A stretch of 64,000 nucleotides of DNA from Symbiodinium sp. CCMP2592 (lineage: Eukaryota > Sar > Dinophyceae > Suessiales > Symbiodiniaceae), in assembly GCA_905221615.1 (NCBI GenBank), contig CAJNDT010000591.1:485001-549000 (forward strand), in the 5' to 3' direction. Below the pieces are notes generated by a model that did no database searches, was not told where the DNA came from, and was given only the letters and a program-made list of their open reading frames with translations. The position numbers and the translations under genes were made by a program. Position 1 is the stretch's first letter. Every line of letters starts with the position of its first letter. Of this stretch, positions 19,465 to 60,044 are shown piece after piece.

Positions 19465-19735
19465 ACGCCCTAAACCTGAAACCCTAAACCTGAAACCCTA
19501 AACCCTAAGCCCAAAACGGCCCTAAACCTTGAACCCCAAACCTGAAACCCTGGACCCTAAGCCCTAAACGGCCCTAAACCTTGAACCCTAAACCTTGAAC
19601 CCTAAACCTTAAACCCTAAGCCCTAAACGGCCCTAAACCTTAAACCCTAAGCCCTAAACGGCCTTAACCTTAAACCCTAAACCTTAAACCCTAAGCCTTG
19701 AACGGCCCTAAACCTTAAACCCTAAACCTCTTGCG
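19465..19735. repeat. higher-order telomere-like repeat with CGGCC spacer
   Basis: CCCTAAA-type units are organised into a longer period: the block CCCTAAACGGCCCTAAACCTT recurs several times, with AACCCTAAGC between. This indicates amplification of a variant block and not simple telomerase addition. Confidence 0.85.
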
Positions 19736-20898: not shown

Positions 20899-20985
20899 TG
20901 TTGATGATATAACCTTAAGGACCCTAAACTATGGGAATTATGGTATATTCCTTATTCTGGGTCATGCAGGATTATATCATCAACC
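20899..20985. mobile_element. hairpin element, family E (copy 1)
   Basis: Ends GTTGATGATATA and TATATCATCAAC, core CCTTAAGGACCCTAAACTAT. It ends 6 bases before the 3' splice site of the exon at 20992. Second copy at 39324-39423. Confidence 0.88.
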
Positions 20986-20991
20986 GTACAG

Positions 20992-21044
20992 GTCCCGATT
21001 CCGAAAGCCTTGGAGCAGCCAATCTCGAGCAGTTTCAGCGAGTC
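20992..21044 (+). CDS. acyltransferase-3 gene exon, left of the hairpin intron
   Basis: Acceptor CCGTACAG|GTCCCG. It reads PDSESLGAANLEQFQRV. The 3' boundary lies within GAGTC (21040-21044), which is repeated at the far side of the hairpin. Confidence 0.62.
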
Positions 21045-21181
21045 AAAGGGGAAAAGGAGGGACCCTTAATGGAGACCCCAACCCTATAATGGGATATATA
21101 ATGGGTGTATAACAGCTATATTAAGGGTATATACCTGGGGGTCCTTATTAAGGGTCCCTCCTTTTCCCCTTTGAGAGAGTC
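21045..21181. mobile_element. hairpin element that forms a whole intron, family M
   Basis: Left arm AAAGGGGAAAAGGAGGGACC, right arm GGTCCCTCCTTTTCCCCTTT, loop rich in TATA. GAGTC occurs immediately before (21040-21044) and as the last five bases of the interval (21177-21181). Removing the interval joins FQRV to WRRDCLSEK in frame. Another cut (GT at 21042 to AG at 21177) would also keep a frame, so the exact splice is unsure. Confidence 0.8.
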
Positions 21182-21225
21182 TGGCGCAGGGACTGCCTCT
21201 CCGAGAAGCCTCACATGATCACCCG
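21182..21225 (+). CDS. acyltransferase-3 gene exon, right of the hairpin intron
   Basis: It reads WRRDCLSEKPHMIT with strongly G/C third positions. GC donor ACCCG|GCCGCC in phase 2, which fits the next exon. An alternative frame (SLAQGLPLREAS) is also open but has weaker codon bias. Confidence 0.6.
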
Positions 21226-21244: not shown

Positions 21245-21365
21245 GTCGGTTTAGGGTTTAGGGTTTAGGGTTCAGGGTTTAGGGTTTAGGGTTCTAAACC
21301 CCTAAACCCTAAACCCCTAAAACCCTCAGGGCCTAAACCTCAGGGGTTTTTAGGGTTTTGGGTTT
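21245..21365. repeat. back-to-back telomere-like repeats in opposite orientation
   Basis: TTTAGGG units run to about 21295, then CCCTAAA units to about 21340, then TTTAGGG again. The switch at 21294 makes a head-to-head junction. Confidence 0.88.
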
Positions 21366-25834: not shown

Positions 25835-26572
25835 AGCCCTAGAATCCCTGATAGAGAGAGACATTCCCTGGAAAAGCTTAAAGGAACAAGTGGGGCGTGC
25901 CAACCCCGGAAGGGCCTTCATAAACCCTATCAAGTTGCGTATACAATCCTTCTAGCTTGGTTGAATGATCACTTTTGCTGGTTCGGTTCGCAATCTCTGT
26001 GGACGGCTTTCTCCCAATGGGATGACCTTCTCATGCTTCCAAAGATTGCCTTCGATGTTGCCTTGTTAGTAGTTTTGGGTGTGGTTACGTTGATAATGAC
26101 TTACCTTCAGTTTATTGCACGAGGATGTTTCTACTTGTTCGAAAGTGTCCCAGATGTGAGTCATGCCGTGATAGGACTCTGCGGCGAATGTAGGCACCTG
26201 CCATCCGAACTTAAGCGCTCCTCGAAGACGGGCAGTGTATCTCCGGCCAAAGAAGTTCGGAGATCCGAGCAGCGAATCCTAGAGCTGATTCAGCACGATA
26301 CTGATTCTCGGGACCTGTTGGTCTCGCAGATCGTGGGTGCTGTCATCACACAGGAGCAGGTCTCTTTAGCTGTTGCTGTTGAGATCAAGAAAGCCTTTGA
26401 AGCTTCTGTCCTTCCGCGGCTGGAGCGTCTGGATGAGCTGTGCTCTCTGCAATTGGCGACTCGAAGCTCTTCATCCCCGCGATCAAATGTGGTCCAGGAG
26501 TGGAAATTTGGGGGGGGCATTTTTGAGAAGCCGACGTTGATTTACTTCGGTACAATCGCACCTCCCGGATGA
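25835..26572 (+). CDS. uninterrupted 245-codon frame, unknown membrane-associated protein
   Basis: The frame is open from the TAA at 25832-25834 to TGA at 26570-26572 and is by far the longest open stretch outside simple repeats. It lacks an early ATG; the first in-frame ATGs are near 26034. An alternative exon start is the pyrimidine-rich acceptor CAATCCTTCTAG (ending 25954). The peptide has a strongly hydrophobic stretch (IAFDVALLVVLGVVTLIMTY), then a charged, probably helical region (RRSEQRILELIQHD, EIKKAF) and a Ser-rich tail. No family is recognised. In a region where every other exon is 30-90 nt it stands out as retroposed or horizontally gained, or as a single large exon. A family G hairpin lies about 100 bases upstream and a family D hairpin 23 bases downstream. 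Confidence 0.5.
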   Translation, partial: SPRIPDRERHSLEKLKGTSGACQPRKGLHKPYQVAYTILLAWLNDHFCWFGSQSLWTAFSQWDDLLMLPKIAFDVALLVVLGVVTLIMTYLQFIARGCFYLFESVPDVSHAVIGLCGECRHLPSELKRSSKTGSVSPAKEVRRSEQRILELIQHDTDSRDLLVSQIVGAVITQEQVSLAVAVEIKKAFEASVLPRLERLDELCSLQLATRSSSSPRSNVVQEWKFGGGIFEKPTLIYFGTIAPPG

Positions 26573-27414: not shown

Positions 27415-27640
27415 AGGGGTTTAGCGTTTAGGGTTTAGGGGTTTAGGGTTTAAGGGTTTAAGGGTTTAGGGTTTAGGGTTTAGGGGCTTAGGGTTTAGGG
27501 GTTTAAGGGTTTAGGGTTTAAGGGTTTAGGGTTTAAGGGTTTAGGGTTTAGGGTTTAGGGGTTTAAGGGTTTAAGGTTTAGGGCTCTTCTATAAGTTGCT
27601 GTCGGGGTTTAGAGTTTAGGGTTTAGGGCTCTTCTAAGGG
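27415..27640. repeat. telomere-like repeat tract (TTTAGGG)
   Basis: TTTAGGG/TTTAAGGG units. With the CCCTAAA tract at 27280-27320 it brackets the candidate exon in opposite orientations. Confidence 0.92.
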
Positions 27641-39323: not shown

Positions 39324-39423
39324 CTGTTGATGATATAGATCCTGCATTACCTTAAGGACCCTAAACTATGGGAATTATGGTATATTCCTTATTGTGGGTA
39401 ATGCAGAATTTATATCATCAACC
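39324..39423. mobile_element. hairpin element, family E (copy 2)
   Basis: Ends CTGTTGATGATATA and TATATCATCAACC; inner CCTGCATTACC pairs with GGTAATGCAG. Nearly the same as the copy at 20899. Confidence 0.88.
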
Positions 39424-46814: not shown

Positions 46815-47030
46815 TTCGGGTTTAGGGTTTAGGGTTTAGGGTTTAGGGTTTAGGGGTTTAGGGGTTTAGGGGTTTAGGGGTTTAGGGTTTAGGGTTTAGG
46901 GTTTAGGGTTTAGGGCTTAGGGTTTAGGGCTTAGGGTTTAGGGTTTAGGGTTTAGGGTTTAGGGTTTAGGGTTTAGGGTTTAGGGTTTAGGGTTTAGGGG
47001 TTTAGGGGTTTAGGGGCTTAGGGGTTAGGG
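46815..47030. repeat. longest near-perfect telomere-like array (TTTAGGG)n
   Basis: About thirty TTTAGGG units, some TTTAGGGG or CTTAGGG, without interruption, inside a P450 intron. No direct repeats were seen at its edges. Confidence 0.97.
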
Positions 47031-59366: not shown

Positions 59367-59585
59367 TTAGGGCTTAGGGGTTTTGGGGTTTAGGGGTTCA
59401 GGGTTTAGGGGTTCAGGGTTTAGGGTTTAGGGGTTCAGGGTTTAGGGGTTCAGGGTTTAGGGTTTAGGGGTTCAGGGTTTAGGGGTTCAGGGTTTAGGGT
59501 TTTGGGGTTTAGGGTTTAGGGTTTTGGGGTTTAGGCTAGGGTTTAGGGTTAGGGTTTAGGGTTAGGGTGTAGGCTTTAGGGTTTA
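59367..59585. repeat. telomere-like array bracketed by a 15-base direct repeat
   Basis: TTTAGGG/TTTAGGGG/TTCAGGG units fill 219 bases. GGCTCGAAGTCAGGC stands immediately before (59352-59366) and after (59586-59600). The array begins 17 bases into intron 1. Confidence 0.95.
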
Positions 59586-60044
59586 GGCTCGAAGTCAGGC
59601 GGTCTCTCTAAGGGATCCTTCTTAAGGGTCCTCTAAGGGGACCTTTTAGGGGGCTCTTTTTGTTTGATTTTGTTTGTTTGTGTGTTGTTGCCTGTTATTA
59701 TTTGTTTTTGTTGTTGTTCATTATTTTGTTAAGGGGGCTCTAAGCGGATTAGGGTTAAGGCGGTTAAGGGTTTGGGGTCGTTTAGGGTGTAGCGTTCAGG
59801 GTTTGGGATTTACAAGAAAGTAGGTTCAGAGATGGTTAAAGTCGACTCTTTAGTAACATTGCGTGTCACTTGAGGGGCTTACGGTTGAAGGTTTAATATT
59901 TTAAGATTAACCTGTCTTGGTTTACAATGTTGTTTTGTTGTCCTCTTACGTTTTGTGTATGTCGTGGTTGGTTTTTGTTTACTCTTTTGAGTCTGAAAAG
60001 GTTTGGGCTAAGCTGAGTTCATGTTGGGAGTTAGGATTAGGGGG

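Follow-up and report, generated by a model that had tools for sequence, protein, structure and literature searches.

A palindromic 132-bp hairpin element with 5-bp target-site duplications in Symbiodinium sp. CCMP2592, probably one copy of a high-copy MITE family

Results and Discussion

The hairpin element and its immediate surroundings

The window, by which we mean the whole 64,000-nucleotide stretch of DNA that was analyzed, contains on its forward strand a complete hairpin element of 132 bp (TCAAAGGGG...CCCCTTTGA) at positions 21043..21174, the limits of which were set from 79 full genomic copies. Comparison with these other copies places its termini, TCAAAGG...CCTTTGA, at 21043 and 21174. 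The left terminal inverted repeat (21043..21070, forward strand) has 28 bases, all of which pair with those of its partner, the 28-base right terminal inverted repeat (21147..21174, forward strand). Folding gave one long hairpin with internal loops and a TA-rich middle. Positions 21030-21190 have a folding energy of -86.5 kcal/mol, whereas shuffled versions average -48.7, and none of the 200 shuffles folded as stably; the hairpin is genuine and well above chance. An inverted repeat with a TA-rich middle had been recognized in the initial annotation, but its perfect arms were given as 20 bases rather than the 28 found here. The interval of 137 bases described there is likewise close to the mark, though not exact, being made up of the 132-bp element and one 5-base duplication. 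Across the family, 18-28 of the 28 bases in the terminal arms are paired (n = 46 copies).

On the forward strand, the element is flanked on its left by GCGAG (21038..21042) and on its right by GAGAG (21175..21179), the two copies of a 5-bp target-site duplication, which agree in four of their five bases. A different repeat, GAGTC, had previously been read as the target duplication. It is indeed present at 21040-21044 and 21177-21181, but the pair was rejected in this role because the first GAGTC consists of GAG from the flank and TC from the element; it thus straddles the left edge of the element, while the second overlaps the right duplication.

The element was proposed to lie between two pieces of coding sequence, and each of these has a repeat as its neighbor. 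Another forward-strand hairpin, with arms GTTGATGATATAA and TTATATCATCAAC (13/13 arm bases), is situated at 20900..20984 and overlaps the proposed upstream piece, and a TTTAGGG/CCCTAAA-like array lies at 21248..21326, just past the proposed downstream piece.

Copy number and age of the family

Searches were conducted against a genome of 1,098,105,373 bases in 5,383 contigs. Positions 21040-21181 used as a query gave 1,988 first-look candidates, of which 40 were scored; these were the window itself and 39 others with 92-95% identity. The initial annotation had suggested looking through the assembly for other intervals with the same arms, and this search was productive, as the 19-base end of the element has 4,339 exact matches genome-wide (reversed control, 0). 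A two-ended pattern, consisting of both ends and a middle of 92-120 bases, had 2,853 strand-wise matches (control, 0). We estimate there are about 2,600 distinct copies of this strict two-ended form, based on the fact that 9 of the first 100 matches listed were the second strand of a copy already counted. The element had been treated as a one-off, a view that does not hold for a sequence present in thousands of copies.

Full copies were collected in two samples. The first, drawn from 39 loci with 3-kb flanks together with the window, yielded 46 full copies: the window copy, six extra copies inside the fetched loci and 39 copies picked by score. The flanks of these 39 lean to G, as the query held three left and seven right flank bases. 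The second sample comprised 40 of 100 listed places of the 19-mer, taken in contig order with some skipped (already sampled or close together); seven of the 40 were dropped as partial, leaving 33 full copies.

Two of the 46 copies in the first sample are identical to their consensus. Divergence from this consensus ranges from 0 to 11.4%, with the window copy at 5.3%. In the second sample, identity to the consensus of the first 46 extends from 78.0% to 97.7%, with a middle value of 94.1%. Judged from these identities, the family was recently active and has older or shorter members as well. A viral or bacterial origin was rejected, as the 19-mer end had no match in viral contigs and only three in a prokaryote collection, where about two would be expected by chance in 257 billion bases, with the proviso that such collections may omit near-genome records.

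Target-site duplications and an empty site

Exact flanking duplications of 5 bp were found in 45 of the 79 full copies (23/46 in the first sample and 22/33 in the second). At least four of the five duplication bases match in 41/46 and 28/33 copies, respectively, and the duplication is absent in the remaining five copies of each sample. No exact duplication of 4 bases, or of 6-8 bases, was present among the 79 full copies; exact 2-base flank matches numbered three in the first sample and two in the second, and exact 3-base matches two and none.

One copy, in locus L052 (element at 301, duplication CAAAA), is nested inside a hairpin of a different family. Uninterrupted members of that second family in four other loci (L023, L036, L046, and L030) provide the empty site: they align without gaps across the L052 junction once one of the two 5-base copies is removed. 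These alignments show that the L052 copy inserted as a transposon into another mobile element. In the displayed part of this comparison, which ran to 212 rows, many of the matches fall in TTTAGGG-like repeats; a few of the rest, such as that of the L027 copy, have gaps where they pass the junction and are uninformative. For the window copy's own empty site, the joined flanks matched only themselves genome-wide at E values up to 10, a result that amounts to absence of evidence since the search skips very common words.

These data also bear on the idea that the hairpin is a structured RNA gene or a regulatory hairpin under selection. Its very stable fold would be in keeping with such a role. Nevertheless, the target-site duplications and the empty site indicate insertion and the copies number in the thousands, and we regard this explanation as extremely improbable. 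The candidate of a structured RNA gene was rejected, as no Rfam family reached its gathering score in the window.

Probable assignment to the MITEs

We consider it very probable that the feature at 21043-21174 belongs to a family of MITEs, non-autonomous DNA transposons with terminal inverted repeats, that is high in copy number, has recently been active and is palindromic over its 132 bp. The data show that the ends of the family are defined, that its members duplicate 5 bp of the target, that the copies number in the thousands and are nearly identical to one another, and that an empty site exists for a copy other than that in the window. MITEs of the terminal-inverted-repeat class are likewise short and non-coding, with a fixed-length duplication and a high copy number, and we find no essential difference between them and the window family. 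The properties by which a MITE is recognized were found as follows: terminal inverted repeats; a target-site duplication of fixed length, which is 5 bp in the family and agrees at 4/5 bases in the window copy; many copies, located at sites unrelated to one another; and an empty site, this last for the L052 copy.

In the mechanism we propose, a transposase encoded elsewhere, the existence of which is presumed, would recognize the TCAAAGG... ends, and insertion at a staggered cut would then duplicate 5 bp of the target. At the window locus the target was probably either GAGAG or GCGAG, one copy of which would have mutated since.

An origin in a dinoflagellate agrees with the 429 exact genomic copies of the 21-base dinoflagellate spliced leader (reversed control, 0). 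The spliced-leader copies, together with the 5-bp duplications, the thousands of copies and the empty site, bear out the initial view of a mobile hairpin element that makes target-site duplications in a dinoflagellate. As a MITE family it is ordinary in kind, an addition to the many high-copy families of a dinoflagellate genome; its uses should lie in annotation and in marking recent transposition.

Comparison with introners

The initial annotation went further and proposed that the element is an introner, that is, an intron-generating transposon inserted into coding sequence. Its statement that introners had already been described in dinoflagellates is confirmed by the literature (PMC9860276, PMC11114475, PMC10522408). 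Introners are found in many eukaryotes and in some cases add codons (PMC9860276); among the dinoflagellates, they are reported for Symbiodiniaceae and Polarella (PMC9860276; Roy et al., 2023, cited in PMC11453091) and introner elements for Suessiales (PMC11114475, PMC10522408). Those of Symbiodinium microadriaticum have terminal inverted repeats, 4-bp duplications and their own 3' splice site (PMC9860276). In Amoebophrya, the inverted repeats of introners measure 8-20 nt and their direct repeats 3-5 nt (PMC7789003), and a general definition of an introner element calls for inverted repeats (8-20 nt) plus direct repeats (3-5 nt) no more than 30 bases from the ends of the intron (PMC10666404). 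The window element has inverted and direct repeats of this pattern, and no intron is annotated at the locus.

There are similarities and differences between the window family and these systems. The introners of Symbiodiniaceae and Polarella resemble the window family in being from dinoflagellates and, in S. microadriaticum, in having terminal inverted repeats; however, the S. microadriaticum duplication is 4 bp whereas that of the window family is 5 bp. Introner elements of Amoebophrya are similar to the window element in their hairpin, their inverted repeats and the direct repeats of 3-5 nt at their edges. Amoebophrya introners, however, are reported to be without a detectable family-specific inverted repeat (PMC7789003), and the window family has a family-wide one. 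The Amoebophrya introners were also called among introns backed by RNA-seq reads (PMC7789003), whereas the window element was recognized in genomic DNA. In contrast to the S. microadriaticum introners with their 3' splice site, the window element carries neither splice site whole.

Splice geometry

The element itself begins with TC and ends with GA. With a G on each side, it would form a putative GT-AG intron, G|TCAAAG...CTTTGA|G, and such an intron is conceivable at 21042-21175 because a G stands on both sides of the element there. This hypothetical intron (21042..21175, forward strand), which is read from the sequence, would have 134 nt, being the element plus one G at either end, and its removal would leave 5 - 2 = 3 extra bases, adding one codon and keeping the frame. 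The outer Gs would come from the two target copies and the T and A from the element, and therefore a GNNNG target together with a 5-bp duplication would add exactly one codon with no change of frame. The idea of an insertion into an exon, with the element being spliced out as this 134-nt intron, is favored by the geometry itself and by a pyrimidine-rich tract (CCCTCCTTTTCCCCTTTGAG) before the end of the putative intron. It is also favored by the S. microadriaticum introners with terminal inverted repeats and 4-bp duplications, by the addition of codons by some introners (PMC9860276) and by the hairpin introners reported in Amoebophrya (PMC7789003).

The element was also said to carry its own splice-compatible ends. 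This part of the proposal is not supported, as the element ends in T...A and both GT and AG need a G from the target. Since a G is needed on both sides, splice sites are not carried whole, and for most copies a GT-AG intron with boundaries precisely at the element's edges would be impossible. A G on both sides, strand read, was found for only 100 of the 2,853 strand-wise matches (window copy included), which counts against the introner explanation, and GNNNG targets account for 4 of the 45 exact duplications. A gene on the opposite strand would call for a C on both sides, and this arrangement occurred in 1/46 and 0/33 copies in the two samples. There are 716 matches with a G on the right, and 100 of these (14%) also have a G on the left; in the second, contig-order sample the G on the left was seen in 4/33 (12%). 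No excess of G...G copies is visible, because the genome-wide value for right-G matches is close to the left-G rate, which was taken from the 33-copy sample, and this again argues against introners.

AGGTN is one of several target types that would restore the message exactly. Such targets were found beside a 15-base end of the element in 11 matches, compared with the approximately 17 expected at 1 in 256 of 4,339, and among the exact duplications they number 2/45. The low number of AGGTN targets is a further point against the introner explanation.

On a broader scale, one may imagine a family of palindromic introners that duplicates 5 bp of its target, whose T...A ends would turn any GNNNG target into a frame-keeping GT-AG intron that adds one codon, and some of whose 100 G...G matches, the window copy included, are spliced. 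We think it improbable that such a family exists here. If some of the G...G copies were spliced, the conversion of a transposon into an intron without a frame break could be tested cleanly and by counting.

Coding potential of the flanks

Whether the window copy could be an intron depends in part on the nature of its flanks. When the 137 bases are removed, EQFQRV joins WRRDCLSEK in an open frame; this phase-matched join, which is the core of the initial annotation, was reproduced. All three forward frames are open at the joined site. For 24% of 20,000 places drawn at random from the window, some frame of the six was at least as open as the frame proposed, and open frames were therefore rejected as a sign of coding. 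Among the first 46 copies, a total of 61 ORFs of at least 50 aa extend across the joined site, and these are distributed over 30 copies. All three forward frames were open for at least 36 nt on both sides at only 2.9% of the random places, as in a GC-rich, stop-poor stretch. The GC content of the flanks is 0.55 on the right and 0.44 on the left, and that of the right flank could fit an exon.

The proposed frame has a codon score at the 93.5th percentile of the open 40-codon stretches in the window, a point in favor of an introner, although the training set of the model consisted of just two ORFs; a reverse-strand frame scores as high. No Pfam match was found at E values up to 0.1 in the six frames of 16-26 kb, and the joined flanks had no second genomic match at E values up to 10. 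The upstream open frame, which begins at 20928, extends across the right arm of the hairpin at 20900-20984. A real exon there would have about 53 bases between two mobile elements; a gene rich in introners could contain such an exon, but the data do not require one.

Several observations count against the MITE explanation, namely the open frame left after removal of 137 bases or of 134 nt, the three open forward frames (2.9%), the codon score, the GC content of the right flank, the window duplication of 4/5 bases and the negative outcome of the search for the window copy's own empty site. On the other side, the signs of a gene that were sought with Pfam, frame openness and the joined-flank search are lacking, and the upstream frame overlaps another hairpin. 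With no Pfam domain, no other match for the joined flanks, openness at the level of chance and an upstream frame that shares bases with a hairpin arm, the claims of coding sequence and of an intron within it are not supported. An introner reading of the window copy is possible, but the evidence leans against it and we judge it unlikely. We infer a non-coding location for the window copy and consider that it is not an intron.

A related explanation, compatible with a MITE, is that the element is carried as a passenger by a real gene, in one of its untranslated regions or in a larger intron, and has no role in splicing. Hairpins are abundant in the surrounding DNA, and a copy in locus L041 begins 15 nt past the stop codon of a 131-codon ORF, indicating that copies can adjoin gene-like ORFs. 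Against this is the fact that no gene was identified around 21 kb in the six-frame Pfam search, and we hold the passenger explanation to be possible but rather doubtful.

Other hairpins, repeats, and open frames

We surveyed the whole window and the 39 fetched loci (L009-L047) for MITE-like hairpins and found 193 in 303,244 bases, forming 26 sequence clusters; the window has 25 of them. The cluster of the window element's family holds 42 of the 193, this being the family used to choose the loci. By eye, the hairpin at 20900-20984 belongs to the same family as another at 39326-39422; it is below the score cut-off of the survey.

In a further family, TTAGAAG...CTTCTAA, the ends are accompanied by direct repeats of 8 bases, which are exact in two of the five members listed (L017:2239-2349 and L026:4825-4936) and agree in 7/8 bases in two more (L018:136-236 and L034:2315-2419). 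Because of these 8-base repeats, it is likely that more than one type of transposase is at work.

Internal arrays of the telomere-like repeat TTTAGGG/CCCTAAA are interspersed in the window, for example at 19468-19729, 21248-21326, 27417-27583, 46818-47030, and 59367-59587. The dinoflagellate spliced leader was absent from the window at up to three mismatches. By eye, the longest non-repetitive open frame in the window is at 25835-26569 (forward strand, 245 codons) and is perhaps a real exon; a Pfam search that covered the start of this frame, to 26000 only, gave no match. The 131-codon ORF mentioned above, at about 2591-2986 of L041, has a hydrophobic start and many cysteines, and is followed 15 nt past its stop codon by the copy of the element.
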